Shown here in pieces: positions 6,424 through 22,596 of a DNA stretch of 39,777 bases. The stretch's first letter is position 1. Each line of letters begins with the position of its first letter. The translations under genes and the position numbers were made by a program. The stretch is from assembly GCA_949287335.1 (NCBI GenBank), contig CASEGE010000042.1, positions 1 through 39,777 on the forward strand. The letters run 5' to 3'. The notes beneath the pieces were generated by a model, which was given only the letters and a program-made list of their open reading frames with translations, ran no database searches and was not told the DNA's origin. Origin of the DNA: an uncultured Olsenella sp. (GTDB taxonomy: Bacteria > Actinomycetota > Coriobacteriia > Coriobacteriales > Atopobiaceae).

Positions 6424-7062
6424 GTGGGTCGACTCTACGGGTACGCGCGCGTCTCCACGCGCGAGCAGAACCTTGACCGGCAGCTGAGCGCGCTCAGGGA
6501 CTTTGGGATCGAGGGGCGCAACATCTTCTCAGACAAGTCGAGCGGGCGGGACTTTGAGCGGCCCGCGTGGCGTCGGCTCATGAGACGACTTGCGGCGGGC
6601 GACGTGCTCGTGGTGAAGAGCATCGACCGGCTTGGGCGCAACTACGAGGAGATTCTTGCCGTGTGGCGGCTCATCACCAAGGAGCGGCGCGCGGCCATCG
6701 TGGTGCTTGACATGCCCATTCTGGACACGCGTCGCGAGGCGGACGGCATCACGGCCGTGCTCATAGGCGACATCGTCCTGCAGCTTCTGAGCTACGTGGC
6801 GCAGGTGGAGCGCGAGAACACGCACCAGCGACAGGCCGAGGGCATCGCGGCGGCAAGGGCGCGCGGGGTCCGCTTTGGGAGGCCGAGAAAACCGAGGCCA
6901 CCGTGCTATCGCGCGGTCAAGGAGTCCTATCTGGGAGGCTCGATCACACGCAAAGAGGCATCGTCGCAGCTAGGGGTATGCGTGAGCACCTTCGACCGCT
7001 GGCTCAAGGAGGATGCGCGCATAGCCGAGAAAAGCGTTGCGCGTGAGAGTTTAAGCAGGTAG
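6424..7062 (+). CDS. Serine site-specific recombinase (resolvase/invertase family)
   Basis: This 212-residue small serine recombinase has a catalytic N-terminal domain with YARVSTREQN (nucleophile Ser11), VKSIDRLGRNYEEI, and a long E helix (QLLSYVAQVERENTHQRQAEGI). It is followed by GRPRKP and a C-terminal helix-turn-helix (ITRKEASSQLGVCVSTFDRWL) for site binding. The GTG start follows GGGAGAGC. Twenty bases after its stop comes the first of two inverted 16-bp dyad sites that enclose a promoter, so the most direct reading is a DNA invertase that switches that promoter. Family members cut with a 2-bp overlap, which matches the 2-bp core of these sites. Resolvase activity cannot be excluded from sequence alone. 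Confidence 0.93.
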   Translation: MGRLYGYARVSTREQNLDRQLSALRDFGIEGRNIFSDKSSGRDFERPAWRRLMRRLAAGDVLVVKSIDRLGRNYEEILAVWRLITKERRAAIVVLDMPILDTRREADGITAVLIGDIVLQLLSYVAQVERENTHQRQAEGIAAARARGVRFGRPRKPRPPCYRAVKESYLGGSITRKEASSQLGVCVSTFDRWLKEDARIAEKSVARESLSR

Positions 7063-7082
7063 ATGACGGTGTTGAGGAGATG

Positions 7083-7098
7083 AAAACGTACACGTTTT
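7083..7098 (+). repeat. Left recombination site (inverted repeat)
   Basis: AAAACGT-AC-ACGTTTT: two 7-bp half-sites in dyad around core AC. With the preceding G at 7082 the match to the right site extends to 17 bp. Confidence 0.85.
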
Positions 7099-7181
7099 GA
7101 GAAAGGGGAAGAATGGGTGGAGATTAGTGTGCAGAATGAGCCGGGGTATCTTTTGTTAACGCCACCTGTAAAGCGCGTATG

Positions 7182-7187
7182 TATAAT
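7182..7187 (+). promoter_or_regulatory. Promoter -10 box inside the invertible segment
   Basis: A perfect TATAAT, preceded directly by TG. No good -35 hexamer sits 16-18 bp upstream (TTGTTA at 7153-7158 is too far). A start near 7194 would put the right recombination site in the leader, where it can fold as GAAAACG-TGTA-CGTTTTC. Confidence 0.65.
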
Positions 7188-7209
7188 GACGATTGCTGTA
7201 CTGGGACTG

Positions 7210-7225
7210 AAAACGTGTACGTTTT
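7210..7225 (-). repeat. Right recombination site (inverted repeat)
   Basis: AAAACGT-GT-ACGTTTT, the exact reverse complement of the left site, in the leader of the NusG-like gene. Confidence 0.85.
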
Positions 7226-7251
7226 CGCGCTTTTGAGAAGGGGGAGGTCAC

Positions 7252-7857
7252 ATGTCTACTGCGGTTGTCGCAGCGGCCGGGCGTCGGACGCCGAGCGCGG
7301 TCATTGGCGGCCTTCCCTGCGGAAGGCGCGTCCCCAGAGGCCAGGTGCGCTGGTACCTCATTCGCGTGCGCGAGGGCAGCGAGCAGAGCACGTGCGAGCG
7401 GCTGCTCAGGCTTGTCCCGCGCAGCATCCTGCGCGACTGCTTTGTGCTGCGTCGTGAGAGCTGGCGCAAGAACGCTGGCGCGTGGCACCTGCAGGTCTCC
7501 GTGGCGTACAAGGGCTACGTCTTTGCCGTGACGGATGACCCGGCGGCGCTCTACAAGGCGCTTTCCCAGCTCAGCGTGTCCGCGCAGATTGCGGGCGCGG
7601 ACGGTCGCGCGTGGATGCCGCTCTCGCCGGACGCACAGGCGTGGTTTGAGCGGTGTGCGGACGAGCGCCATGTGCTGCGCAGCAGCGTTGCCGTGATCGA
7701 GGACGGCGAGCTGCACGTGATCGAGGGTCCGCTCGTCGGATGCGAGAAGAGCATCTGTGACGTGGACCGCCATCACCGTCGCTGCATGGTGAGCGTGCCC
7801 GGAGCAAACGGTTGCTTTACCGAGCTCATGCCCCTCGTCGTTCCGGTGCGGAACTAG
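7252..7857 (+). CDS. NusG-family (LoaP/UpxY-like) transcription antiterminator
   Basis: This 201-residue protein begins with about 30 unrelated residues, then an NGN domain (VRWYLIRVREGSEQSTCERL at about 34-53, with YKGYVFAVTDDPAALYKAL further on) and a C-terminal KOW-like segment (DGELHVIEGPLVGCEKSI, about residue 150-170). Specialised NusG paralogues of this build (RfaH, UpxY, LoaP) bind RNA polymerase at the start of one long operon and prevent early termination; LoaP-type proteins typically serve polysaccharide or polyketide clusters. It is the first gene of the glycan cluster and has a strong ribosome site (AGGGGGAGG). Its promoter lies inside the invertible segment, so its expression should be switched. 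Which subfamily it belongs to needs a tree. Confidence 0.85.
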   Translation: MSTAVVAAAGRRTPSAVIGGLPCGRRVPRGQVRWYLIRVREGSEQSTCERLLRLVPRSILRDCFVLRRESWRKNAGAWHLQVSVAYKGYVFAVTDDPAALYKALSQLSVSAQIAGADGRAWMPLSPDAQAWFERCADERHVLRSSVAVIEDGELHVIEGPLVGCEKSICDVDRHHRRCMVSVPGANGCFTELMPLVVPVRN

Positions 7858-7902
7858 GGGCGGGTGTTGGCGATGAGGAACAACGCTGCCGAGAAGAACA
7901 CT

Positions 7903-7932
7903 GTGCCCGCAAATTGCTGCGGGGGGGGGCAC
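7903..7932 (+). promoter_or_regulatory. Leader hairpin running into a G9 tract
   Basis: CCCGCA (7906-7911) pairs with TGCGGG (7918-7923) around a 6-base loop. The 3' arm runs into nine G residues (7921-7929), then CAC, which can pair with GTG at 7903-7905. It lies between the antiterminator gene and the first biosynthetic gene, the usual place for the RNA element a LoaP-type protein reads. The G9 run is also a candidate slippage site. Confidence 0.5.
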
Positions 7933-7969
7933 TCATGTGCTCGAGGATAGGCGTGGCGGAGGTGGCGGC

Positions 7970-8734
7970 GTGAGCGAGGCCGTAAGTGATGCCCAGTTTT
8001 TAAATCCCACCATCGCGAAGGGCGACTGGATAAGGGCTGACGTTACTGACGCCGAGGCTATCGAAATGCTGCGCGGGGCCGACTCCGGCCTGCGTCCGCT
8101 CCTTGGGCGGCGCGGGTACCGCTTCGTCAAGCGGGTGATAGACATCGTCTCGTCGGGGGCGGCCATCGCGCTGCTCCTCGTTCCCGGGATCGTGCTGTCC
8201 GCCGTCATATGCATCAAGAGCCCGGGCGCTGGCCCGCTCTACTCGCAGGTACGCGTCGGGAGACTGCGCAGGGACGGGACCTTCCGCCTGTTCCGCATGC
8301 TGAAGTTCCGCTCCATGATGCCCCACGCCGACGAGATGCTCGCCGAGCTCAAGGAGCGCAACGAGGCGGACGGCCCCCTCTTCAAGATCAAGGACGACCC
8401 GAGAATCATCCCCGGCGTCGGCAAGTTCATACGCAAGCACAGCATCGACGAGCTACCGCAGCTGCTGAATGTGTTCGCGGGTCAGATGTCGCTCATCGGG
8501 CCGCGTCCTGCGCTTCCCAGCGAGGTCATGCAGTACGACGGGCGCACCATGTGGCGGCTCGCCGTCAAGCCCGGCTGCGGCGGGGCATGGCAGGCGGGCG
8601 AGCGCTCCGACTCCACGTTCGAGGGGATGGTCGACGCCGACCTCGAATACATCGAGAAAAGCTCGTTCCGGCACGACCTCTCGCTCGTCTTAGGGACACT
8701 CCGCTCCATGCTCGATGGGAAGGGGGCGTACTGA
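7970..8734 (+). CDS. Priming sugar-phosphate transferase (bacterial sugar transferase)
   Basis: This enzyme would load the first sugar-phosphate onto the lipid carrier undecaprenyl phosphate and so start each glycan repeat unit. It has the short, WcaJ/WbaP C-terminal type: one hydrophobic helix (ASGAAIALLLVPGIVLSAVICIK region; residues VSSGAAIALLLVPGIV visible), then RMLKFRSM, the DPRI motif, KHSIDELPQLLNVFAGQMS and LIGPRPALP. I chose GTG at 7970 (254 residues) because GGAGGT lies 6 bases upstream. The frame is open from GTG at 7937. With one G fewer in the G9 tract, an ATG at 7873 would join it in frame. Its stop overlaps the next start by one base (TGATG context). The sugar specificity cannot be read. 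Confidence 0.93.
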   Translation: MSEAVSDAQFLNPTIAKGDWIRADVTDAEAIEMLRGADSGLRPLLGRRGYRFVKRVIDIVSSGAAIALLLVPGIVLSAVICIKSPGAGPLYSQVRVGRLRRDGTFRLFRMLKFRSMMPHADEMLAELKERNEADGPLFKIKDDPRIIPGVGKFIRKHSIDELPQLLNVFAGQMSLIGPRPALPSEVMQYDGRTMWRLAVKPGCGGAWQAGERSDSTFEGMVDADLEYIEKSSFRHDLSLVLGTLRSMLDGKGAY

Positions 8735-9876
8735 TGGAGAAGCCCATCCGCATCCTGGAGGTCGTCAACGCGATGGATCGTGCCGGCCTCGAGACGATGA
8801 TTATGAACTACTACCGGGAGTTCGACCGCGATAGGATCCAGCTCGACTTCCTCACGCATCGCGACTGGCGCGGGGATTACGACGACGAGATTGAGTCCCT
8901 CGGCGGGCGCATCTACCGCGCTCCGAGGCTCTACCCGCAGCACTGGTACTCGTACCGGAGGTTCATGCGGCGCTTCTTCGCGGAGCACCCCTATCCGGTC
9001 GTGCACTCCCATATCGACGCGATGTCCGCGTTCCCGCTCGCGATGGCGAGAGAGTACGGCGTGCAGGTGAGGATCGCGCACTCGCACAACGAGTCCGTAG
9101 ATTATGACCTGAAATACCCCATCAAGGAGCTGGCGCGCCGCAGGCTGCCGAAAGTCGCGAACCGCTACTGGGCCTGCAGCGAGGCCTCCGGTGTCTACCT
9201 GTTCGGCGAGGAGCGCCGCGGGGAGATTTGCGTGGTGAGGAACGCCATCGAGCTCGAGGAGTACCGCTTCGACGGAGTCGCCCGCGAGCTGGTCCGCTCG
9301 GAGCTCGGGATAGGCCCGGAGCAGATTGCGATCGGGCATGTCGGGCGCTTCTCGAAGGTCAAGAACCATGCCCTCCTCCTCGAGCTTCTCGGCGAGCTGC
9401 GGCGCGAGGGTGGGGACGCCGTCCTCGTCCTCGTCGGCGACGGCGAGCTGCGTGCCGAGATCGAGAGGAAGGCGGAGGGGATGGGGCTCTCCGGGTCCGT
9501 AAGGTTCCTGGGCGTGAGGAGCGACGTCGGGCGCGTCGTCAACGCCTTCGACGTCGTTGTGTTCCCCAGTATCCATGAGGGAATCCCCCTGGCGCTCATC
9601 GAGGCGCAGGCGAACGGCCTTCCCGTCCTCGCGTCGGATGCCGTGTCGGGCGAGTCGCTGCTGCTCCCCACGGCCGAGAGCCTGCCGCTCGGGGCCCCGC
9701 TCGGGGAATGGGCCTCCGCGACCGTGCGCCTCGCGCGCGCGGGGCGCACCGATGGCGCGATGGACATCCTCGCCGACGCGGGCTACGAGATCCACCGGGC
9801 GGCAGGGCGGCTCGCTGAAGCGTACGAGGAGCTGTACTCCGCCGCCCTCCGAGACGGAGGGCAGCCGTGCGTATAG
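8734..9876 (+). CDS. GT4-family glycosyltransferase
   Basis: This 380-residue, two-domain GT-B enzyme would transfer a sugar from a nucleotide donor to the growing lipid-linked unit on the inner face of the membrane. The N-terminal acceptor domain starts KPIRILEVVNAMDRAGLETMI; the C-terminal donor domain has IGHVGRFSKVKNHALLLE, LVLVGDGELR and the FPSIHEGIPLALIEAQANG segment with the conserved Glu pair region. It resembles EpsF-type exopolysaccharide transferases. It is tightly coupled: its ATG shares a base with the upstream stop, and its 3' end overlaps the next gene by 10 bases. Confidence 0.92.
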   Translation: MEKPIRILEVVNAMDRAGLETMIMNYYREFDRDRIQLDFLTHRDWRGDYDDEIESLGGRIYRAPRLYPQHWYSYRRFMRRFFAEHPYPVVHSHIDAMSAFPLAMAREYGVQVRIAHSHNESVDYDLKYPIKELARRRLPKVANRYWACSEASGVYLFGEERRGEICVVRNAIELEEYRFDGVARELVRSELGIGPEQIAIGHVGRFSKVKNHALLLELLGELRREGGDAVLVLVGDGELRAEIERKAEGMGLSGSVRFLGVRSDVGRVVNAFDVVVFPSIHEGIPLALIEAQANGLPVLASDAVSGESLLLPTAESLPLGAPLGEWASATVRLARAGRTDGAMDILADAGYEIHRAAGRLAEAYEELYSAALRDGGQPCV

Positions 9877-10988
9877 CGATGATCGGGCAGAAGCGGACGG
9901 GATCGCGCGAGGGAGGGATTGAGGTCGTCGTGACTGAGCTTTCCGTCCGCATGGCCGCGCTTGGGCACGAGGTGACCTGCTACGACCGCAGCGGCACCGA
10001 CGTGAACGGCGGGGCCGCACCAACCGAGGCCTACGAGTACGAAGGCGTGCGCATTGTGCCTGTCAAGACGGTGGACGTGAAGGGCCTCGCGGCCCTTTCG
10101 TCCGCGTACGTTGCCACGCGGGCAGCACTCGGGGACCGCCCCGACGTCATCCACTACCACGCCGAGGGGCCATGCAACGCGCTGCCGCTCGCGGCGCGCG
10201 CCGGCGTGCGGACCGTGGCGACGATCCACGGCCTCGACTGGCAGCGCGCCAAGTGGGGAGGCATCGCCTCCCATGTCATCAGACGCGGCGAGCGGAAGGC
10301 GGCCCAGAGGGCAGACGCGCTCATCGTCCTGTCGAGATCGGTTCAGGACTACTTCCGGAGCGAGTACGGCCGCGAGGCACTCTTCATCCCCAACGGGGTG
10401 AGCGCCGCACAGCACGCCCCCGCCGACCGCATCACCGACAGATGGGGGCTCACGGAAGGGTCGTACGTCCTCTACCTCGGCCGCATCGTCCCCGAGAAGC
10501 GACCGGAGCTCCTGCTGGAGGCGTTCCGCGGCCTCGGCACCGACAAGCGGCTAGTGATCGCGGGCGGCTCCTCCGACACGTCGGGGTTCTACGAGGAGGT
10601 CCGCTCCCTCGCCGCGCGCGACCCTCGCGTGATCATGACGGGGTTCGTCGAGGGCCGGGAGCTGGAGGAGCTCTACTCGAACGCCTACTGCTACGTGCTC
10701 CCATCCGACCTAGAGGGCATGCCCATGAGCCTGCTGGAGGCAATGGCCCACGGTTGCTGCTGCGTGACGAGCGACATCCCCGAATGCGCGGAGGTCGTCG
10801 CGAATGCGGGGATTACCTTCCGGAACGGCGATGCGGGAGATTTGTGCAGGGCGCTTCGGCTTCTGATCAGCGACCATGCCCGCGCTACCAGGTTAGGAGA
10901 TTTGGCCCGTGAGCGTATTGAGTCCGAGTGCGATTGGGATTCCGTTGTGCGCAGAACCCTCTCACTCTACGCAAGGCAACCCGGCTAA
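9867..10988 (+). CDS. GT4-family glycosyltransferase
   Basis: This 373-residue GT-B enzyme has the N-terminal motif MIGQKRTGSREGGIEVVV (a Gly-rich loop of the GGIE type seen in rhamnosyl/mannosyl-like GT4 enzymes), TIHGLDWQRAKWGG, and the donor-site segments YLGRIVPEKRPELLLEAF and VLPSDLEGMPMSLLEAMAHG. It starts at GTG 9867 with GGAGGG upstream. It differs clearly from the previous transferase, so the repeat unit contains at least two different linkages. Donor and acceptor cannot be assigned. Confidence 0.92.
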   Translation: MRIAMIGQKRTGSREGGIEVVVTELSVRMAALGHEVTCYDRSGTDVNGGAAPTEAYEYEGVRIVPVKTVDVKGLAALSSAYVATRAALGDRPDVIHYHAEGPCNALPLAARAGVRTVATIHGLDWQRAKWGGIASHVIRRGERKAAQRADALIVLSRSVQDYFRSEYGREALFIPNGVSAAQHAPADRITDRWGLTEGSYVLYLGRIVPEKRPELLLEAFRGLGTDKRLVIAGGSSDTSGFYEEVRSLAARDPRVIMTGFVEGRELEELYSNAYCYVLPSDLEGMPMSLLEAMAHGCCCVTSDIPECAEVVANAGITFRNGDAGDLCRALRLLISDHARATRLGDLARERIESECDWDSVVRRTLSLYARQPG

Positions 10989-11023
10989 CTGGTAGTGCTG
11001 CCCCTAGGATACGAAAGGCAACT

Positions 11024-12145
11024 GTGAAAGTATCACTTATAACCCGGCATGCCGCCATCAACTACGGCTCTCTGCTGCAGACCATAGCCACTCAGCGCTC
11101 CATTGAGTCGCTCGGGTACGAATGCTCCGTCATTGATTACGTCCGGGAGGACGAGGACATCTGGACCATCGAGAAGACGCTTCTCGCATCGAAGCCGGAA
11201 TGGAACGGCTCCGCGCTCAAGCGTTTCCTCTATCTGGCGATGAGGCAGCCATCGTGCGTTATCGCCGGGAAGCGCTTCAAGGCGGAGAGGGAGCGCTATC
11301 TGTCTCTGACGCGTCGCTACTCCTCCTATGACGATCTTGCCGGTGACCCTCCTGAGGCGGACGTCTACATGACGGGGAGCGACCAGGTCTGGGGGCCCGT
11401 CGCGAGGGGCGTGTACGACTCCGCTTACATGCTTGGCTTCGCCCCTGGGGGCGCCCGCAAGGTCGCGTACGCCGCGAGCTTCGGGAAGAACCATCTGGAT
11501 GCCGGTGCCGCGCGGGAGATGCGCGAGCGCCTCACATCGTACGACGCTATATCGGTTCGTGAGGACATGGCCGTCGAGCAGCTGCGGGAATGGGGGATTC
11601 CGTCCGAGCAGGTGCTTGACCCGACGCTCCTCCTGGGCGCGGACGAGTGGCGCGCGCTGTCCAGGGAGTCGGGAGATTCACCGGGCGGCGGATCGCCGTA
11701 CGCGCTCATATACCAGATTCACAACGATCGCCTGCTCTCCAGCTACGCGGAAAGGGCCGCCAAGCATCTCGGGCTGCCGCTCGTCAGGGTCTCGCCCTAC
11801 CTCCACCAGGTCAGCCGTTCCGGCAAGCTCCGCTACCTTCCGAGCGTCGGGCACTTCATAGACCTGCTGGCGAGCGCCTCCTGTCTGATTACGGACTCGT
11901 TCCACGGGACGGCGTTCGCTATCAGCTTCAACGTTCCGTTCGTGGAGGTCCTTCCCGACACCGGTACGACCGGGCGCGCGATGAGCCTCCTCCGGATGAC
12001 GGGACTGCAGAGCCGCGTACTTGTCGATTCAGACGATGTCGCCCTTGCGGGGGCTCCGGTGGATTTCGGGGAAGCTAACCGAGTCCTAGCGGAGCAGCGG
12101 GGCCGCTCTCTCGGCGTGATGAAAGGGCTGATCGAGGGATGCTGA
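11024..12145 (+). CDS. Polysaccharide pyruvyl transferase family protein
   Basis: This 373-residue member of the pyruvyl-transferase family has the opening HAAINYGSLLQTIA, the GSDQVW motif around the middle, DAISVRE, LDPTLLL and the C-terminal DSFHGTAFAISF segment. Family enzymes move pyruvate from PEP to a sugar as a ketal, giving the glycan an acidic group. The GTG start at 11024 follows GAAAGG. The open frame extends 32 codons further upstream but overlaps the transferase before it and has no ribosome site there. It overlaps the next (FrhB-like) gene by 7 bases, a common pairing in glycan clusters. Confidence 0.9.
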   Translation: MKVSLITRHAAINYGSLLQTIATQRSIESLGYECSVIDYVREDEDIWTIEKTLLASKPEWNGSALKRFLYLAMRQPSCVIAGKRFKAERERYLSLTRRYSSYDDLAGDPPEADVYMTGSDQVWGPVARGVYDSAYMLGFAPGGARKVAYAASFGKNHLDAGAAREMRERLTSYDAISVREDMAVEQLREWGIPSEQVLDPTLLLGADEWRALSRESGDSPGGGSPYALIYQIHNDRLLSSYAERAAKHLGLPLVRVSPYLHQVSRSGKLRYLPSVGHFIDLLASASCLITDSFHGTAFAISFNVPFVEVLPDTGTTGRAMSLLRMTGLQSRVLVDSDDVALAGAPVDFGEANRVLAEQRGRSLGVMKGLIEGC

Positions 12146-13284
12146 CCATCTGCGAGGAAGGGATGTGCGCCGGCTGCATGGCCTGCGCCGACATATGCCC
12201 CACGGGAGCTGTCGCGATTGAGCCGGGCATCGACCGCTACCGTCCCGTCATCGACCAGGATAAGTGCATCGACTGCGGACGCTGTAGAAAGGTGTGCCAG
12301 CAGGTCCATCCCGCCGGGCTCAGGGAGTCCGCTGAATGGTGTCAGGGCTGGGCGGAGGACCCTTCCGAGCGCGGGGCGTCCTCGTCCGGGGGCTTCGCCT
12401 CCGCGATTTCGCGCGCCTTCGCGGAGTCGGGCGGCGCGGTGTGCGCTTGCGCGCTCTCGGAGGGCCGTTTCGGCTTCCAGGTCGTGAGCGACCCGGGCGA
12501 TGTCGACCGGTTCAGGGGCTCCAAGTACGTGAAGAGTGATCCGTCGGGTGCGTACAGGCAGGTGAGGAGCCTGCTCAAGGCCGGTCGAAAGGTCCTGTTC
12601 ATCGGGCTTCCGTGCCAGGTGTCCGCCATGCGCAACTTCGTCGGCGAGCACCTTGGGGAGTGCCTCTACACGATTGACCTCATCTGCCACGGTACGCCGT
12701 CCCCGCAGCTCCTCGAGATGTTCCTCGAGGAGCACGGCTATAAGCTGGTCGATATCGCCGAGATAGCCTTTCGCCGCAAGGCGAGCTTCCAGCTGCTCGA
12801 CTGTTCTACCGCAATCGATACGCCGGGCGTCGTCGACCGCTACCTCATCGCGTTCCTAGAGGGTCTCGACTATACGGAGAACTGCTATTCGTGCGCCTAC
12901 GCAAGGAGGGAACGCGTGTCCGACCTCACCCTCGGCGACTCATGGGGCTCAGAGCTCGAGGACGAGGCGCGCGGCGGAATCTCCCTCGCTCTCTGCCAGA
13001 CGGAGAAGGGAGAGGACCTGCTGCGGATGGCGAAGCTCAAGGTTCTCCCCGTTGACGAGTATCTCGCGGCCGCCAATAACAAGCAGCTCAATCGGCCTAT
13101 GGAGCGACCTGCTGTGCGAGAGCAGTTCCTGCGAAATCTTAATTCTGGAATGCCTTTCGAACGTGCTGTACAGAAGGCTCTGCCCAAGCGCTGTCGCAGG
13201 CAGGATATCAAGCGCGCGCTCATCCGGCTGCGCCTCTGGAATCCGTCGGGGGGGGGCTTCTATGAAATGCGAATCGTCAGGTAG
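12139..13284 (+). CDS. Ferredoxin-FrhB fusion (F420 hydrogenase beta-subunit-like) protein
   Basis: This 381-residue protein begins with a two-cluster ferredoxin domain (CAGCMACADICP and CIDCGRCRKVCQ, residues about 9-55). An FrhB-like N and C domain follows (GASSSGGFASAISRA, GSKYVKSD, LFIGLPCQVSAM, LICHGTPSPQL, CYSCAYARRERVSDLTLGDSWG). FrhB proteins bind flavin and pass electrons to F420 or ferredoxin; their task in polysaccharide clusters is not established. It overlaps the pyruvyl-transferase gene by 7 bases, which suggests they act on the same sugar. A G9 tract (13248-13256) lies near its 3' end; slippage there would change only the last about 12 residues. Confidence 0.88.
   Translation: MLTICEEGMCAGCMACADICPTGAVAIEPGIDRYRPVIDQDKCIDCGRCRKVCQQVHPAGLRESAEWCQGWAEDPSERGASSSGGFASAISRAFAESGGAVCACALSEGRFGFQVVSDPGDVDRFRGSKYVKSDPSGAYRQVRSLLKAGRKVLFIGLPCQVSAMRNFVGEHLGECLYTIDLICHGTPSPQLLEMFLEEHGYKLVDIAEIAFRRKASFQLLDCSTAIDTPGVVDRYLIAFLEGLDYTENCYSCAYARRERVSDLTLGDSWGSELEDEARGGISLALCQTEKGEDLLRMAKLKVLPVDEYLAAANNKQLNRPMERPAVREQFLRNLNSGMPFERAVQKALPKRCRRQDIKRALIRLRLWNPSGGGFYEMRIVR
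13248..13256 (+). repeat. G9 homopolymer inside the 3' end of the FrhB-fusion gene
   Basis: Nine consecutive G residues encode the Gly-Gly-Gly of the C-terminal tail. Loss of one G would give a different tail that stops at 13297, just before the next start. It is the second G9 run in this locus. Confidence 0.8.
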
Positions 13285-13299
13285 GAAGGTGCGATAAAG

Positions 13300-14304
13300 G
13301 TGAATATAGCTTTCTTGAGCTCTACAACCGGGAACAAAGGCCCCTCTAACGTTCACTGTGAGCTTATAGCACATTGGCCGGCTGGAGACAACCTGTCCTT
13401 TTCGGCACAGAGTCCGAAACTGTTAAAGATTTTCGATTCAATTCGAAAAGGCATAAAGGCGGATGTGGTGTTTTCAGGGGATGCTGATTGGCCTGAGCTG
13501 GTCTCCTGTAGGGTACTGCGCGCCCTTGGGAAGCCGATTGTCTGCTTCAACCATGGTTACGTTCCCTACGAGAACGAGATAAACCACCTTGGTCTCTCGC
13601 AGATGAAAATTGATGCATATCGAAAATATCTTTCCGAATCGTATGCCGTTGTTGCGAACTCAAAACTCCAGATGGAGTTTGTCGCCCGAGAGCAACCAGA
13701 CCTTGTCGGCAAGCTTTCATATGTGAATAACGCTGTCGATCCGTTTGAACAGTTGAAACATCATCCAAGCGGGAACGGCGTCATCCGTGTCGCAGCAAGC
13801 GGCGGCACGAGGCCGATAAAGGGTAACGAGGCGGTAGCGCGAGCAATCAAGCTGCTTAACCAGGAGGGATACAGGGCGACTCTGCAGATTTTTGGCAGAG
13901 ATTATGCTGACAATCCAGAGCTATCAGAGCTGCTAGAGCTTCCGTATATCCAGATGAAGGGGCAAGTTTCACACAACCAATTTGTTAAGGAACTGCAGGA
14001 CATCGATGTATTTGTCATGAACTCCGTGCACGAGCCTTTCGGGCTATCGGCACTCGACGCAATTTCCGCCGGCGCATCCTTGCTTCTCTCTCGGCATTGC
14101 GGGGTTCAGGGGATTATGAGCTTAACCGGAAAGGATATCATTAACGATGTCAGTTGTTCGCAAGAAATCGCGGAAGCTATTGTCTATCTTCGGAATAATC
14201 CCAACTCAACGCGACTGTACCAATCAATTGATTTCTCAAAGCTGAATTGGAGCTCTACGTCTATGCGGCTGAGGGACATCATGGCAAATTGTATTTGCGA
14301 ATAG
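13300..14304 (+). CDS. Glycosyltransferase, GT4-like
   Basis: This 334-residue protein has GT-B layout: an N-terminal half with NHGYVPYENEIN and VVANSKLQMEF, then a donor half with VAASGGTRPIKGNEAVARAI, LQIFGRDYADNPEL, and NSVHEPFGLSALDAISAGASLL, which holds the usual E-x7-E-like region. The GTG start lies 15 bases after the previous stop. From here to about 15.7 kb the DNA is visibly richer in A and T and uses A/T-ending codons, unlike the upstream genes, which suggests recent acquisition. The sugar is unknown. Confidence 0.85.
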   Translation: MNIAFLSSTTGNKGPSNVHCELIAHWPAGDNLSFSAQSPKLLKIFDSIRKGIKADVVFSGDADWPELVSCRVLRALGKPIVCFNHGYVPYENEINHLGLSQMKIDAYRKYLSESYAVVANSKLQMEFVAREQPDLVGKLSYVNNAVDPFEQLKHHPSGNGVIRVAASGGTRPIKGNEAVARAIKLLNQEGYRATLQIFGRDYADNPELSELLELPYIQMKGQVSHNQFVKELQDIDVFVMNSVHEPFGLSALDAISAGASLLLSRHCGVQGIMSLTGKDIINDVSCSQEIAEAIVYLRNNPNSTRLYQSIDFSKLNWSSTSMRLRDIMANCICE

Positions 14305-14315
14305 CGAGTATCTAT

Positions 14316-15497
14316 ATGTATAGCAATATCATCAAATCGTCGTTAGGCAGTATTCGAGTATCCAGTATCTTCTACTTATTATACTTCGTACTACTAACAA
14401 AACCTTATTCTATTCAGGCATATCCATTAGCTGAGACCTCTTGGGATATCCTGTGCATGCTCATATCGGTGTTCTATGGATTTAGATTGCTCGCGCGTTT
14501 TGAGGTGGATAGACCCTTAATTCTTCTATGCATGTTCTGCTTGTTGTATTGCATGCTTACATGCGCAAATTATCCCGAAAGGCTACTCGGAGCAATCAGC
14601 GAGAGCCTGCGCATCATAATGATGTATTGGACCGTTATGCATCTATGTAGATTGCATCATGAAAGTGGACTTAGAGTCATTTCCATTTGCTACAGCCTAA
14701 TTCTATACGCCGATGCAGGCAGCATTTTGTATAGCTTTGCCGTTTTTGGATTTGATAGTACATATTCACTTTTAGGCTACGACAATAACGCAATATTTGA
14801 CATTATACCCATGTTGGCAATCGTATTCTACTCAGCGTACTCAAGGCTTAGGGCCTATGGGATGAATTCTAATATTCTGTTATTACTTTGCATTGCTTGC
14901 AAAGTAATAACAGGTGCAGCCACCTCAATGTTGGCATTAATGCTATTTGCTGTAACTCTGTTTATCATTAGATTCAGCAAATCGATTCTTAATATAATAA
15001 ATATCAAAAGTGCTCTAATGATGGTAGTGGCATCTACAATTGGACTTGCTTTCCTACATATCGAACGATATTTCACTTGGCTGTTCAATCTGTTGGGAAA
15101 AGATGTCACATTGAGTTATAGAACTGTAATCTGGGAGCATTCAATTGAGGCAATCGTTAATCAGCCGTTGGGTTACGGAAAGACCGGCAACGGCATTTTC
15201 CAACAATTAACGGGTTTCTCACCATTATATGATCTTGCTGCAAATCACACTCATAATTATGCCCTCGAGCTTTTGTTTGTGTCTGGAATACCTGGGACTG
15301 TCATCTATCTCCTGTTTCTCATCGATGTTGCTGTGAAGTGCAAGTATACAAAGCAAACCTCAATTTTGTTGGCTGGAGTCATTGCATATGCAATTCTTAT
15401 GATTACTGACTCATATCTTTTTATCCCTTCGTTTTATGCCTTGCTAGCAATATTGGCGTCAACACAACTGATAACACGTATCGAAAATACTAAGTAG
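14316..15497 (+). CDS. Wzy-like polysaccharide polymerase / O-antigen ligase family membrane protein
   Basis: This protein of about 393 residues has around ten hydrophobic helices and a large extracytoplasmic loop near residues 255-310 (YRTVIWEHSIEAIVNQPLGYG, then ANHTHNYALELLFVSG), which is the pattern of Wzy polymerases and WaaL ligases (Wzy_C region: R/W...P.GyG...HN). It would join lipid-linked repeat units outside the membrane. ATG 14316 is my choice; the frame is open further upstream but overlaps the transferase. The DNA is strikingly AT-rich, the lowest GC in the window, typical of horizontally acquired wzy genes. Confidence 0.82.
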   Translation: MYSNIIKSSLGSIRVSSIFYLLYFVLLTKPYSIQAYPLAETSWDILCMLISVFYGFRLLARFEVDRPLILLCMFCLLYCMLTCANYPERLLGAISESLRIIMMYWTVMHLCRLHHESGLRVISICYSLILYADAGSILYSFAVFGFDSTYSLLGYDNNAIFDIIPMLAIVFYSAYSRLRAYGMNSNILLLLCIACKVITGAATSMLALMLFAVTLFIIRFSKSILNIINIKSALMMVVASTIGLAFLHIERYFTWLFNLLGKDVTLSYRTVIWEHSIEAIVNQPLGYGKTGNGIFQQLTGFSPLYDLAANHTHNYALELLFVSGIPGTVIYLLFLIDVAVKCKYTKQTSILLAGVIAYAILMITDSYLFIPSFYALLAILASTQLITRIENTK

Positions 15498-15506
15498 GCA
15501 CGAACC

Positions 15507-15608
15507 ATGATTAAACAAAAATATGGCCCATTGTTTTTGATTAGTGCGGGCCAAGGACAATATGGGCTCTACCGGATCGAAACGGTCGTCGCGGGAGCTG
15601 AGGGGTAA
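15507..15608 (+). CDS. Possible small ORF (33 residues), unassigned
   Basis: In the gap after the polymerase, an ATG opens a 33-residue frame (MIKQKYGPLFLISAGQGQ...). It has no convincing ribosome site and I recognise no family. It may be a remnant left by the recombination that brought in the AT-rich block, or chance. Confidence 0.2.
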   Translation: MIKQKYGPLFLISAGQGQYGLYRIETVVAGAEG

Positions 15609-15682
15609 AGTCGTGTTTTGCCACGAAAAGACCTGCTGATAGTGCATTGGTTCTATTTGTTTATTTTAATATGAGGAGATTC

Positions 15683-16768
15683 ATGAAGATTGGGATTTTA
15701 ACTTTCCATAACACGTGTAACTACGGAGCGATGCTCCAAGCGTATGGCTTGCAGTCGGTGCTGCAGGATTTAGGACATGAAGCTTCAATCGTAGACTACA
15801 AGAATGCTGCCGTCACGGAACGGGAAGAGGTAATCAAGCCAGCCATTTCTCTTCTCCTTTCGAATCCGCGGAGGTATTGCACGGAGAGGTATTCCTATCC
15901 GAGGCGCAAGCGGCGATCGGAAGCGTTTAAGAGATTCGCTGATGAGCACCTGGCTGTCGGAGCACCGATGGAGAGCGTGACGGACATCATTGACGGCTAC
16001 GATGCGGTTGTAGTTGGCAGCGACCAAGTCTGGAATATGCGCTTAACGGGCAATGATCTGACCTATTTCCTTGAGGGGGCCCAGAGCTCTGATATGAAGG
16101 TGATTTCATATGCAGCGAGTTTCGGAGCGGCGGTGTTTCCTTCTGAATACGCGGAGCGTTGCGGCTCCGCCATCTCTGGGTTCGATGCGATAAGCGTGCG
16201 CGAACTGCAAGGCGTGCAGCTTGTTCGGGAGCTTACGGGAAGAGATGCCCAACTTGTCCTCGATCCGACGCTTCTTGTTGAGCGCGAAACATGGCTCAGG
16301 ATGGCTAAGGAGCCGAAAAGCGAGACAGGTTCCTACGTTCTCGTTTACACCGTTGCCGAGAAGGAAAAGACGTTGGCTTTTGCGCGTGATGCGGCGAAAG
16401 AGCTCGGCTGCGAGATGCGAGTCATTGGGGTGAGCAATCCCTTTTTGTTGAAGAAAGCTAGATCGCTAAACGATGCGACGGTGGAAGAGTTTCTCGGCCT
16501 AATCCGTGGTGCCGCGCTGGTGGTTACGAGCTCATTTCATGGCATGGCACTCTCCTTGGCGCTCGGCGTGAACGTCTGCTACTCCCTTAGCGATCGTCCA
16601 GGAAACTCAAATTCAAGGCTCGAGACTCTTGCTTCGCTCGCAGGAATCGAAAGGAGAAACATTTCCAACGGGCTTCCTTCGAGTCGGATTGACTTCGAAG
16701 CCGTTGACTCTGCGATGGCTATTGAGAGGGAGAAGTCTCTGACGTTTTTGAGAGACGCGCTCGCTTGA
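15683..16768 (+). CDS. Polysaccharide pyruvyl transferase family protein (second copy)
   Basis: This 361-residue protein is a second, diverged member of the family: FHNTCNYGAMLQAYGLQ at the N-terminus, VVVGSDQVWN, SYAASFG, FDAISVRE, LDPTLLV and TSSFHGMALSLALG. The ATG at 15683 has a strong GAGGAG ribosome site 5-10 bases upstream. It shares motifs with the copy at 11024 but differs throughout, so it is not a recent duplication. It either decorates a different residue or replaces the function of the other copy. Its stop overlaps the flippase start region. Codon use is intermediate between the AT-rich block and the GC-rich flanks. Confidence 0.9.
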   Translation: MKIGILTFHNTCNYGAMLQAYGLQSVLQDLGHEASIVDYKNAAVTEREEVIKPAISLLLSNPRRYCTERYSYPRRKRRSEAFKRFADEHLAVGAPMESVTDIIDGYDAVVVGSDQVWNMRLTGNDLTYFLEGAQSSDMKVISYAASFGAAVFPSEYAERCGSAISGFDAISVRELQGVQLVRELTGRDAQLVLDPTLLVERETWLRMAKEPKSETGSYVLVYTVAEKEKTLAFARDAAKELGCEMRVIGVSNPFLLKKARSLNDATVEEFLGLIRGAALVVTSSFHGMALSLALGVNVCYSLSDRPGNSNSRLETLASLAGIERRNISNGLPSSRIDFEAVDSAMAIEREKSLTFLRDALA

Positions 16769-18417
16769 TGGGCTTGATGGATACACAAAGCTTCTGCCCT
16801 GGTTTCCACATGTGCCAACCGATTGTAGCTGATTGGATGAATAGGATGCCTTTGAGGAAAAAAGTAGTAGACAATCGTCGTTCGCGCACCTCCTCAGTCT
16901 CGGGGAGCCGTACCACGGCATTCATGGGCAATGTTTTAAGCTCTCTGCTGCTCCAAGTGGTCAACATCGTTGTCGGGTTCGTCGTGCCGCATGCCCTCAT
17001 CGGCACCTACGGATCGGGGCTCAACGGGCTCGTTACCTCGCTCACGCAGTTCGTGAGCTACGTACAGCTCGTCGAGGCGGGCATATCGTCCGCCGCCGTC
17101 TTCCAACTGTACGCGCCTCTCGCGCGTCAGGATACCGCGGGGGCGAGTCGGGTCGTCTCGGCGGCGCGCGTCTTCTACTACAAGTCGGGCGTGGCGTTCA
17201 CGGCGCTCATGCTCGCCCTCGCGTGCCTCTACCCGGTCTTCATCCAGGTGGAGGGCGTATCATCGGTGGGCGTGTTCATCCTCACGCTCGCGCTCGGAGC
17301 CACGGGCTTCCTTGATTTCTTCACGCTCGCCAAGTACCGTGTTCTCCTCACTGCTACGCAGCGCAACTGGGTCATCCAACTCGCCACGATTGCTTACAAG
17401 GTCCTCTACACCGCCGTGGTCCTCGTGGGCACCTTTGCTGGCGCCTCGATAGTGGCGCTGTTCGTCGTCGCAATCCTGCCCATTGCCGTCAGGACGGCGA
17501 TTCTGGTTGTCTATGCCAAGAGGAACTATCCGGACATTGACTTCAGTGCGGATGCTCGCGGTCTCAAGCTCGATCAGCGCTGGGATGCCTTCTTCCTGCA
17601 GGTTCTCGGCGCGGTGCAGTCAGGCGCACCCACCATCGTCGCGACCTTCGTGCTGGGGGACCTCTCGCTCGTGAGCGTCTTCTCGGTGTACATGCTCGTG
17701 GCGAATGGGCTCCAGAACGCCATCAGCTCGTTCAGCCAGGGAACCCAGGCCTCCTTTGGTGATGTGATCGCCCGGGGGCAGCGGGAGACCCTAAAGCGGT
17801 CATTCCGCGAGTTCCAGGCGATGGCCTATGGGGTGTCGGGTGTGGCTTGTGGCGTGGGTATTGCACTTATCGTGCCTTTCGTGCGGCTCTATACCGCCGA
17901 CATTGCTGATGTCAACTACGTCCACCCGCTCGTCGGGGCCCTGTGCATGGTGAACGTTCTGCTCTACCACCTCAAGACGCCGCAGGGTCTGCTCGTCATC
18001 TCGGCGGGGCTCTACCGCGAGACCAGACTGCAGACCGCGACACAGACTGCCATCCTGCTCGTCGGGGCAATCGTGCTCGGAGTTCTCTTCGGGATGCCCG
18101 GAATCCTTGCGGGCATGATTCTCTCCAATCTCTATCGAGACATTGATCTCATGTACTTCATCCCGAGGAAGCTGACCGGCACCGCCCCGGCGGAGACTCT
18201 CAAGCTCATGCTGCTCGCGGTCGTGGTGTGCGCGCTAATCGCGGCGCCGTATCTGGTCGTCCTGCCGCCCTGCAACGGATGGGGAGTTTGGGCAATCTCG
18301 GTGCTCGTCCTTGCGCTCTGGGGAGGGCTGCTTACGGTCGCGCTCTATCGGGTTTTCGCCCGTGAGCAGTTCTCAGGCCTCATCGCTCGCGCCCGCAGGC
18401 TCGTCGCCAGAAGATAA
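16768..18417 (+). CDS. Wzx-like flippase (MATE/MOP superfamily polysaccharide exporter)
   Basis: This protein of about 549 residues, with 12-14 hydrophobic helices, would flip lipid-linked repeat units across the membrane, completing the Wzx/Wzy-type set with the polymerase. Typical features are NVLSSLLLQVVNIVVGFVVPHALIGTYG near the N-terminus, VEAGISSAAVFQLY, and LVSVFSVYMLVANGLQNAISSFSQG in the middle. The start is uncertain: ATG 16768 overlaps the previous stop, a TTG lies one codon before it, and ATG 16837 or 16846 is possible, since the first about 50 residues look unlike the rest. Codon use returns to the GC-rich style here. Confidence 0.88.
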   Translation: MGLMDTQSFCPGFHMCQPIVADWMNRMPLRKKVVDNRRSRTSSVSGSRTTAFMGNVLSSLLLQVVNIVVGFVVPHALIGTYGSGLNGLVTSLTQFVSYVQLVEAGISSAAVFQLYAPLARQDTAGASRVVSAARVFYYKSGVAFTALMLALACLYPVFIQVEGVSSVGVFILTLALGATGFLDFFTLAKYRVLLTATQRNWVIQLATIAYKVLYTAVVLVGTFAGASIVALFVVAILPIAVRTAILVVYAKRNYPDIDFSADARGLKLDQRWDAFFLQVLGAVQSGAPTIVATFVLGDLSLVSVFSVYMLVANGLQNAISSFSQGTQASFGDVIARGQRETLKRSFREFQAMAYGVSGVACGVGIALIVPFVRLYTADIADVNYVHPLVGALCMVNVLLYHLKTPQGLLVISAGLYRETRLQTATQTAILLVGAIVLGVLFGMPGILAGMILSNLYRDIDLMYFIPRKLTGTAPAETLKLMLLAVVVCALIAAPYLVVLPPCNGWGVWAISVLVLALWGGLLTVALYRVFAREQFSGLIARARRLVARR

Positions 18418-18430
18418 GGGGGGCGTCGCC

Positions 18431-19060
18431 ATGCACTATACCTGCGACCTGATTTGCCGGGGGCTCCGCCTCCCCGGGCGTCTTCCAGCCGTTCCTTTCT
18501 ATGTTCGAGTGAGGCGTCGAGAAGCGTGCCTCCTCCTACGGCCGCCGTGAATCCGGCGTGCCCACCAGAGGGGCGAAGATTGCGATTTGATGTCAACAGC
18601 TCTGTGGAATCAGGAACGGCCGTGGCGCGCGCCTGGAGGGCCCTGTGGTACGACCGCCTCTGCCGCGAGCCATGCTACCGCTGTGGTCATCATTTGACGG
18701 CTCATTCCGGCGACTTCACAGTCGACGACTGGTGGGGCCTCGAGCCGTGTGCGCTTTGGCAGGAGGATCCCTGAGGCATGTTCTACGCCGTTGCGAGTGC
18801 GTCGTACGGCCTCTCGCTTCAACAGCGGCGCTCCCGCTCGAGTTCGTCCCTATGCCCATCGCGGACGTCGTCAACCCTGCGTAGCCCATTCTCTCGCACC
18901 TGCCCGAGAGGAGGGGCGCGAAGGTTTTGACCGGGGCTCTATGCCGGAGGCTTCGAGGCGGCCTACCGATCTGTCGGCGTATTCGGCTTGGCGAGGACCG
19001 CGAAGGACTTGGCCAAGAGTGCACTCTTGGCCTGCGAAGTGGTGGAAAAGCGAGAAGCAA
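18431..19060 (+). pseudogene. Degraded FrhB-like gene
   Basis: Pieces of an FrhB-family protein appear in shifting frames. TCDLICRG is followed after a frameshift by GVFQPFL; then VARAWRALWYDRLCREPCYRCGHH and HSGDFTVDDWWGLEP match the intact neighbour at 19101 (AEAWKRLFYDNRMLRPSCYRC, GDVTIADFWGVE). A C-terminal stretch (GFEAAYRSVGVFGLARTAK) may follow near 18950-19015. At least two frame changes and internal stops show it is dead. The boundaries are approximate. Confidence 0.65.
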
Positions 19061-19100
19061 CCAAGAATCAGCAGATAATGCCTGGAGGGAGGCATCGAAA

Positions 19101-20102
19101 ATGGATTTCGAGGAGTTGGAGGAGCGCGGTGAGTACCCGGTTGTTTTTGCGGCGCGGAACCTTGATGATGGCGTCAGACGTCGAAGCTCGTCAGGGGGCA
19201 TGTACCATGCGCTCGCGTCTAATGTGATAGGGGACCTCAGCGGTGTGGTCTACGGCTGCGCGTTCGACGAGGAGCTGCGCGCCAGCCATATTCGCTGCGA
19301 GACCATGGCGGATGTCGAGCGCTGCATGGGGTCGAAATACTCGCAGAGTGACATGGGGAACTCAATCAGGCAGGTTCGGGAGGATCTCGAGGATGGCCAT
19401 GCGGTGCTTTTCACCGGGACACCCTGCCAGGTGGCGGCCGTGCGTGCGGCCTGTGCGGACGTTGAGGGGGGTGTCCTAGTGACCGCTGACATCATATGCC
19501 ACGGCGTGCCGTCCCCCGAGGTGTTTCAGGGTTGGCTCGCGGAGCTGGAGCGCGCCCGCGGCGCACGCGTCGCTCGCTATGAGCACAGGCCAAAGTCCCG
19601 AGGTTGGGGTCACTTCGAGCGCGTTACCTGGGAAGATGGGTGCACCGAGCAAGGAACCCGCCTCGCGGAGGCGTGGAAGCGCCTGTTTTACGACAACAGG
19701 ATGCTCCGCCCCTCGTGTTACCGCTGCCCCTACACAGTCACGTCGGGGCGCCCGGGAGACGTCACCATCGCGGACTTCTGGGGCGTGGAGGGGACGCCCC
19801 ACGCGCGCGGGGACGACGCCGCGCTCGGCGTGTCGCTCGTGCTCGCCAACGGCCCGGCGGGGCTGCGCGTCCTGCGCGAGCTCGATGCGGACCTCGAGCC
19901 CGCGACGATGGAAGAGGCTCTGCCGCGGAACCCGATGCTGGAGCGTCCCTCTACCTACGAGGGCGAGCACGACGGGCCCTGGCGAGGGCTCTACTCCGAC
20001 GGCCTGCTCGCCATGGCGCGGCGCGAGCGGTACCTGGTCTCGCCAGCCCGCTCGCTCGCGTCGAACGCCAAGCGGGTTATGAAGCGGATTCTCGGAAGGT
20101 GA
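19101..20102 (+). CDS. FrhB-like protein without ferredoxin domain
   Basis: This 333-residue protein has the FrhB N and C domains: RRRSSSGGMYHALASNVI, GSKYSQSDMG, VLFTGTPCQVAAV, DIICHGVPSPEVF, and SCYRCPYTVTSGRPGDVTIADFWG with the cysteines expected to hold an Fe-S cluster. It lacks the N-terminal ferredoxin present in the gene at 12139, but a separate ferredoxin follows 4 bases later (20107), so the pair looks like a split version in reversed order. ATG 19101 is chosen because of GGAGGGAGG upstream. The frame is open further upstream, through pseudogene DNA. Confidence 0.85.
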   Translation: MDFEELEERGEYPVVFAARNLDDGVRRRSSSGGMYHALASNVIGDLSGVVYGCAFDEELRASHIRCETMADVERCMGSKYSQSDMGNSIRQVREDLEDGHAVLFTGTPCQVAAVRAACADVEGGVLVTADIICHGVPSPEVFQGWLAELERARGARVARYEHRPKSRGWGHFERVTWEDGCTEQGTRLAEAWKRLFYDNRMLRPSCYRCPYTVTSGRPGDVTIADFWGVEGTPHARGDDAALGVSLVLANGPAGLRVLRELDADLEPATMEEALPRNPMLERPSTYEGEHDGPWRGLYSDGLLAMARRERYLVSPARSLASNAKRVMKRILGR

Positions 20103-20106
20103 TCGC

Positions 20107-20493
20107 ATGAGGAATGGAAAATTCACCCCGCGCAGGGGCTTCACCCCGCCGGATAACACCCCATATCGCTACCGCGACGGCTCACGGGTGGACGCCTCGC
20201 CTGGCTACCACCCGCACGTCTCCACGCGCTTCCGCAACTGGGGCGCGGGAGCTCCCGCTGCCATCGCCAAACGCGAGCTGCCCGAGCTCTACCGGGATCG
20301 GTCCGAGTGCTGCGGCTGCACCGCCTGCGCCGCCGCGTGCCCGTGCGACGCCATCGCGATGGAGCCGGACGAGGAGGGGTTCGCCTATCCCGTGGTCGAC
20401 GCCGCGCTTTGCATCCGCTGCGGAAGGTGCATGGATGCCTGTGTCTTCAAGGCAGCCCTCGTCGAGAGGTGGCACCAGGGCGTACGCAAGTAA
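20107..20493 (+). CDS. Two-cluster 4Fe-4S ferredoxin-like protein
   Basis: This 128-residue protein has about 65 polar residues followed by two CxxCxxCxxxC motifs (CCGCTACAAACPC and CIRCGRCMDACVF). It probably passes electrons to or from the FrhB-like protein encoded 4 bases upstream, which lacks its own ferredoxin. It is the last gene of the glycan cluster on this strand. The N-terminal part resembles nothing I know. Confidence 0.8.
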   Translation: MRNGKFTPRRGFTPPDNTPYRYRDGSRVDASPGYHPHVSTRFRNWGAGAPAAIAKRELPELYRDRSECCGCTACAAACPCDAIAMEPDEEGFAYPVVDAALCIRCGRCMDACVFKAALVERWHQGVRK

Positions 20494-21103: not shown

Positions 21104-22596
21104 GTTCATGTCGGAAATGTTGGTGTAAGCAGACAGAGGCTCTCTTCGATACGGGGGCGGCCATTGCCTAGAATCCGAGATCGCGACAAGTCAGGTTCTC
21201 GAGAAAGGCAATGACCGCAATGAGCAGGATAGCAGACGAGACGATCGCGGCGGCGACCGAGATGCCCCGCTTCGGGGATGGGTTCATCAACCTGAGAGAG
21301 GTGATCCGCCAGCTCGCCGAGTCCGTCGTGAACGAGATCATGAGCGCCGAGGCCGACCAGCTCTGCGACGCCACGGGCAACAGCAGGAACGGCTACCGGG
21401 AGCGCAAGCTTGCCACCTGCGTGGGGACCCTGACGCTCCGGATTCCGAAGCTTCGCACGGGCAGCTTCTTCCCCGACGACGTCCTCGAGCGCTACAAGCG
21501 GGTCGACCGGGCGGTGGTCGCCGCGGTGGCGGAGACGTGCGCGACCGGCACCAGCACGAGGAAGGTCCAGAGGGTCGCCGCCGCCATGGGGATCGAGAGG
21601 CTCTCCAAGGACCAGGTGAGCGCCATATGCGCCCATCTGGACTCCGAGGTCGAGGAGCTGGCGACCAGGCCGCTGGGAGGGCTCCCCGTGCCCTACCTCT
21701 GGGTCGACGCGACGTACGTGAAGTGCCGGCGCGAGGGGCGGGTGGCGTCGACCGCGGTCGTCACGGCGATAGGCTGCGACTCCGAGGGGTGGAGGCACGT
21801 GCTCGGCGTCGGCGTCGTCGACACCGAGAGCTACGACTCGTGGTCGGAGTTCCTGGGCAGGGTCAAGGCCAGGGGCGTCTCCGGCGTTCGGCTCGTCACC
21901 TCGGACGCGCACGAGGGGCTGAGGAGGGCGGTCGAGGAGACCTTCCAGGGGGCGGCGTGGCAGCGCTGCGTCGTGCACCTGATGCGGGACTGCGCGCGGG
22001 CGGCATCCGGCTCGCGCCGGCTCTCCCGCAGGGTCTCGAGGATCGTGGCGCCCGTATTCCGGCTCAAGGAGGAGGGGGCCGTAAGGGCCGCCTACCACCT
22101 GGCGATCGAGATGCCCGGGTCGTGCTGCCCCGAGGCGGCGCGCACCCTCGAGGAGGCGGAGCCCGGCGCGCTGGCCTACCTCGACTTCCCGCGCAGCCAC
22201 TGGAAGCGCCTCAGGACCAACAACGTCCAGGAGCGAACCAACAGGGAGATAAAGCGCAGGTCGCGCGTGGTGCAGGTGTTCCCGTCGGTCACGTCGACGG
22301 GGAGGCTGGTCGGCGCGGTCATGTGCGACCAGGACGAGGCGTGGGCGGACGCGCGCTACTTCTCGGAGAGGGTCATGTCCGAGCTCGGCGAGGAGGGGGA
22401 GCCGGCCGTCGGGCGCGAGCCCCCGACCGCGGAGCAGCTGGAGGGCTTCCGGCTGGTGGCGCAGCGGGCAATCGACGCGAGCCTCGAGCTTGCGGACGAG
22501 CTGGAGGCGGCGTAGGATGGCTCGTTGACCGACGGTTCCGGGCGATGGCGACGCCCCCGACGAGTGGGCCGTTACACCAACTTTCTCGACACTACC
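21104..22596 (+). mobile_element. IS256-family insertion sequence inside the portal gene
   Basis: This 1493-bp element has imperfect 25-bp terminal inverted repeats at 21104-21128 and 22572-22596; the inner 10 bases GTTGGTGTAA match perfectly, as does TGTCG further out. It is flanked by a perfect 8-bp duplication, CCGTCCCT, and IS256 elements make 8-9 bp duplications. It carries one full-length transposase gene. Removing it and one repeat restores the portal reading frame across the junction, so the boundaries are well supported. Confidence 0.9.
21211..22515 (+). CDS. IS256-family (mutator-type) transposase
   Basis: This 434-residue DDE transposase has its probable catalytic residues at Asp166 (LWVDATYVK), Asp232 (VTSDAHEGL) and Glu341 (NNVQERTNREIK). 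The family block SRNGYRERKLATCVGTLTLRIPK lies near residue 60, and KRRSRVVQVFPS follows the catalytic Glu. The full length and intact motifs suggest that it is still active. ATG 21211 follows AAAGG. It sits inside the terminal repeats of the element and is transcribed opposite to the broken portal gene. Confidence 0.93.
   Translation: MTAMSRIADETIAAATEMPRFGDGFINLREVIRQLAESVVNEIMSAEADQLCDATGNSRNGYRERKLATCVGTLTLRIPKLRTGSFFPDDVLERYKRVDRAVVAAVAETCATGTSTRKVQRVAAAMGIERLSKDQVSAICAHLDSEVEELATRPLGGLPVPYLWVDATYVKCRREGRVASTAVVTAIGCDSEGWRHVLGVGVVDTESYDSWSEFLGRVKARGVSGVRLVTSDAHEGLRRAVEETFQGAAWQRCVVHLMRDCARAASGSRRLSRRVSRIVAPVFRLKEEGAVRAAYHLAIEMPGSCCPEAARTLEEAEPGALAYLDFPRSHWKRLRTNNVQERTNREIKRRSRVVQVFPSVTSTGRLVGAVMCDQDEAWADARYFSERVMSELGEEGEPAVGREPPTAEQLEGFRLVAQRAIDASLELADELEAA

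Follow-up and report, generated by a model that had tools for sequence, protein, structure and literature searches.

A recombinase-adjoined invertible promoter as the probable on/off switch of a surface-polysaccharide operon in an uncultured Olsenella sp.

Capsule promoters of Bacteroides fragilis are inverted by the serine recombinase Mpi, and in Bacteroides this one enzyme serves many sites. UpxY is the NusG-family antiterminator at the B. fragilis capsule loci (PMC7593976). In Salmonella the Hin recombinase inverts roughly 1 kb of DNA bounded by 26-bp sites and uses a 65-bp Fis enhancer (PMC3798978), and the cps1 capsule inverton of Akkermansia is a short invertible intergenic promoter near surface-polysaccharide genes (PMC13343947). 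LoaP of Bacillus velezensis is a NusG paralogue for long biosynthetic operons (PMC12691694). One survey of a defined community put the median for its Actinobacteriota genomes at 14 invertons, in a text that makes no mention of Collinsella, Eggerthella or serine recombinases (PMC11892184). No description of a cassette of recombinase, inverton and LoaP, of the spacing rule presented below or of a class of switches with the -35 element inside the site was found in the inverton literature searched, and the literature searched, which was covered in part, gave no case of a LoaP controlled by inversion. Here we present the analysis of a window (the whole stretch of DNA analyzed, 39,777 nucleotides) from a MAG of an uncultured Olsenella sp., which very probably carries an on/off switch for a surface-polysaccharide operon. 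Invertons are a known kind of switch, and the cassette described here is a novel form of one.

Two 16-bp dyads, site 1 at 7083-7098 (AAAACGTACACGTTTT, AAAACGT-AC-ACGTTTT) and site 2 at 7210-7225 (AAAACGTGTACGTTTT, AAAACGT-GT-ACGTTTT), are inverted copies of each other with a match of 16/16; as read, they differ only in the AC/GT centre, a non-palindromic 2-bp core. The inverted repeat reaches 20 bp at 95% complementarity (7082-7101 / 7207-7226). The proposed invertible segment between the sites (7099-7209, 111 bp; no strand is assigned to it or to the sites) contains a single TATAAT, a -10 box at 7182-7187 on the forward strand, 28 bp ahead of site 2. A good -35 at a distance of 17 bp is absent, and the -35 is weak. 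The recombinase ORF (6424-7062, forward strand, 212 aa; PF00239, E=1.2e-31), which encodes the proposed invertase, ends 20 bp before site 1. The original prediction had described two dyads with an inverted 2-bp core, some 111 bp with one TATAAT enclosed by them and a recombinase gene ending 20 bp away; the dyads are correct to the base and the other particulars were confirmed.

The product of this ORF has a resolvase catalytic domain with the active-site serine and arginine of a small serine recombinase, and its catalytic residues R9, S11, R69 and R72 align with gamma-delta resolvase and Sin. It is the sole recombinase of its family in the MAG. A scan of the 2.25-Mb MAG for the site pattern returned the window pair as the only matches (backwards-read control: 0), and among the 140 genomes of the taxonomic family the exact pattern occurs only in this MAG and in one other genome (G035). 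An exact-pattern scan of IMG/VR for a second strain gave 0 matches, and a scan of the window with Rfam gave none.

The gene under the switch (7252-7857, forward strand, 201 aa; PF02357; NF033641, E=2.4e-26) encodes a NusG paralogue. Among the NusG-paralogue models the LoaP model NF033641 gave the top score, 92.8 bits, which is below its cut-off of 125 bits, and the protein is therefore named LoaP-like. Its gene heads a cluster that comprises a priming sugar transferase (7937-8734, forward strand; PF02397, E=1.2e-48), the true start of which is uncertain and the frame context of which depends on a G tract, followed at 8734-20493 on the forward strand by genes for glycosyltransferases, pyruvyl transferases, an O-antigen ligase-like protein and FrhB/ferredoxin-like proteins, taken here as a single transcription unit. 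A Mutator-family transposase (PF00872) is encoded at 21211-22515, just beyond the polysaccharide cluster.

We read the locus, with a probability of about 0.92, as a self-contained phase-variation switch in which the recombinase flips a promoter-like segment and thereby gates the LoaP-like gene and the polysaccharide operon. The recombinase would bind both 16-bp sites and cut within the AC/GT core. The non-palindromic core, together with the inverted arrangement of the sites, would make the outcome an inversion of the 111-bp segment. As sequenced, the switch would be ON, with the TATAAT facing the LoaP-like gene; after flipping it would be OFF, the TATAAT facing back toward the recombinase gene's 3' end while the LoaP-like gene is left without a promoter. 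Whether the polysaccharide operon is transcribed would depend on the LoaP-like antiterminator, and in the OFF state of the window a complementary stretch lying against the ribosome-binding site may, as folding predicts, damp the translation of read-through RNA. This reading is based on sites that are exact and unique, a catalytic recombinase 20 bp away and a layout found in relatives far above controls; on four inverted ortholog pairs, a fixed distance between TATAAT and site in both orientations and a phased spacing; and on the LoaP-like gene being a recurrent target, with polysaccharide genes downstream. Counted against it were the weak -35, the roughly half of related recombinases that have no site pair, an OFF hairpin that is not family-wide, and the single orientation in which the window locus itself has been seen.

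Like the capsule loci of B. fragilis, the window combines a serine recombinase with a probably invertible promoter, then a NusG-family antiterminator and then a polysaccharide operon. In B. fragilis one Mpi serves many loci, whereas here each switch is adjoined by its own recombinase; moreover, the window recombinase scores 46.4 bits with the Mpi model NF009949, far below the cut-off of 272, and by model scores the NusG paralogue is nearer to LoaP than to UpxY. As in the Hin/hix system of Salmonella, a serine recombinase would flip a promoter-bearing segment between inverted sites, but the segment measures 111 bp and does not contain the recombinase gene, and the spacing is helically phased across the family. 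A short, probably invertible intergenic promoter near surface-polysaccharide genes is a feature shared with the gut invertons of the PhaseFinder type, including Akkermansia cps1. With LoaP of B. velezensis the window shares a NusG paralogue that would serve a long biosynthetic operon; in contrast to that system, a simple search (stems of at least 4 bp) found no UNCG hairpin in the window leader or behind the gene, and the RNA target of the LoaP-like protein may differ from this hairpin. The design known from Bacteroides recurs in an unrelated phylum, built from different parts. The host is a gut-type actinobacterium, and because the orientation of the switch can be read from ordinary metagenomic reads, surface variation in the poorly tractable Coriobacteriia of gut and rumen becomes directly testable.

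At the cut-offs used, the recombinase has relatives in 32 of the 140 genomes searched for the family and in 97 of the 397 searched for the order; those named come from an uncultured actinobacterium, an uncultured Coriobacteriaceae MAG and Bacillota such as Pseudoramibacter, Anaerosphaera and Eggerthia. A set of 138 loci was compiled, in which those with a recombinase match were oriented before site scoring. In four orthologous pairs the flanks are conserved (less so the right flank of L056/L064, with 62/100 in a global alignment), the segment aligns well only once reverse-complemented, and the breakpoints coincide with the sites. Identity after flipping is 117/122 for L011/L014, 104/111 for L042/L059, 84/91 for L056/L064 and 125/134 for L057/L063 (92-96%). 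Other close pairs (L124/L126, L069/L093 and L088/L092) have the same orientation, as expected for a two-state switch. At the level of compared sequences the four pairs are proof that segments inverted within the recombinase family, and they exclude for the family the one fixed orientation in all relatives that the original prediction had named as one half of its own refutation. The flipping of the window segment in its own strain, predicted together with an ON state toward the NusG-like gene at 7252, is supported by these relatives and very probable. L042 and L059 belong to different families and have most of the locus in common, which suggests horizontal transfer.

The architecture could instead descend from an invertible ancestor and be fixed ON in this strain, with sites that serve at most for binding. 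One orientation is known at the window locus and several relatives have degenerate sites or none; however, neither window site is degraded, the two agree over all 16 bp, and the recombinase is complete and retains its catalytic residues. We regard such a fixation as quite improbable. Marginally less probable still is flipping by a different, trans-acting recombinase or through homologous recombination of the two repeats. Neighboring sites are absent for some recombinases of the family, and Mpi is a precedent for one enzyme with many sites, but site pairs with a score of at least 34 stand directly behind the recombinase in 44% of 124 testable loci and in only 0.8% of upstream segments, the MAG has only one such pair, and repeats of 16-20 bp are short for homologous recombination. 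That the dyads are chance palindromes or plain operators without a role in recombination is highly improbable, as AT-rich dyads can indeed arise in intergenic DNA but this score was reached by 0 of 2480 shuffled segments, which together with the 44% and 0.8% excludes chance at the family level, and the inversion of ortholog segments at the sites refutes this explanation for the family.

A scored inverted site pair with matching cores lies downstream of a related recombinase in 64 loci of the Coriobacteriales, and about half of the related recombinases have no scored pair nearby. The sites have approximately the form AAAANGT-NN-ACNTTTT, with AC or AG as the core in nearly all; because the first part of this pattern served as the search query, the consensus is not independent evidence, whereas the evidence for inversion is. 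A near-identical recombinase shared by some 20 species within a single genus of the family f3 (L065, L067-L076, L078, L079, L081-L086 and L089) has no scored site pair nearby, and its sites may lie elsewhere in the genome or be of another sequence. In L066 and L116 the outer sites are about 293-295 bp apart, and the L066 segment is identical when read inward from either end, as if it contained an inverted duplicate.

The window switch belongs to the AC class and is ON as sequenced. The segments of this class contain 22 TATAATs altogether; in 20 loci a perfect TATAAT starts 24-28 bp from the exit site, facing toward the gene in 6 and away from it in 14, and no conservation of a canonical -35 was found in the class. 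Of the AG-class loci, 22/36 have a -10-like hexamer (at least 4/6) located 13 bp inside the entry site, and at 17 bp upstream of it the site itself provides the hexamer TAGAC or CAGAC; the -35 of this class appears from these sequences to be part of the recombination site.

The centre-to-centre distances of the sites cluster at about 106, 117, 127, 138 and 149 bp. For 46 less redundant loci the periodicity at 10.85 bp was R=0.80, a value inflated by the common ancestry of the loci, and the maximum in 5000 jittered sets was 0.60; the AC and AG classes are each phased on their own. L088 and L096 have near-identical flanks and spacings that differ by 21 bp (about two turns). This helical phasing suggests two bound sites brought face to face by a very short loop. 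A 111-bp segment would hardly accommodate a 65-bp enhancer plus its loops, and we infer that the bound sites meet without a Hin-type enhancer. The spacing rule and the small size make for a clean system in which to study what lets a serine invertase choose inversion when no enhancer is obvious.

Most AC-class switches stand in front of a LoaP-like gene; a tree-based comparison of site core with LoaP had too few independent pairs. Other targets, named from sequence and not all by profile, are SPFH-domain proteins, large secreted proteins and helicase or methylase genes. SPFH-domain genes stand behind the same kind of switch in L013/L004, L020 and L017; the promoter faces away in L013 and L020, and the sites of L017 are weaker. 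The helicase-like or DNA-methylase-like genes behind the switches of L023, L029 and L095, also named from sequence, possibly have restriction or defense functions.

More tentatively, at somewhat less than even odds, the window may belong to a large and transferable family of compact recombinase and inverton cassettes in the Coriobacteriia, with relatives in the Bacillota. A small serine recombinase would here, with no enhancer and by way of a helically phased mini-loop, invert a promoter of about 90-135 bp, with the promoter at fixed distances from the sites and, in one class, the -35 inside the site. The usual AC-class target would be a LoaP-like antiterminator for surface polysaccharide, joined in the window by an OFF hairpin that covers the ribosome site and by a G tract able to slip ahead of the next gene, which would make a two- or three-layer phase switch.

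The first of these additional layers involves GAGAAAGGGGAAG at 7099-7111 (forward strand), the complement of which would in the OFF orientation face the ribosome-binding region of the LoaP-like gene. In the predicted fold CTTCCCCTTTCTC is thereby set opposite this region (GAGAAGGGGGAGG, 7235-7247, forward strand; assigned from sequence and folding). Predicted folding energies are -17.7 kcal/mol for ON and -31.8 kcal/mol for OFF, and a fold as stable was obtained in 1/1000 shuffles, a figure subject to a multiple-testing caveat because the hairpin was spotted after looking. As a family rule the hairpin was rejected, a combined sequence-mirroring test over 20 AC and 22 AG loci being not significant; the OFF hairpin over the ribosome site is thus a window-specific prediction.

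A G9 tract, possibly prone to strand slippage, lies at 7921-7929 (forward strand) between the LoaP-like gene and the sugar transferase. Tracts of G9-11 in this position occur in L010 (= window), L042, L059, L060 and L061, and L101 has such a run behind its LoaP-like gene; runs of at least 9 G or C number just 13 in 727 kb of loci. An ATG at 7873 in the window would share the transferase frame only with a run of G8 or G11, and in L015, which has no G run, what is apparently the same leader does share that frame. These sequences are consistent with slipped-strand variation as a second layer of phase variation. A second G9 run is found at 13248-13256, near the end of an FrhB/ferredoxin-like ORF (12139-13284), and a glycosyltransferase ORF starts at 13300.
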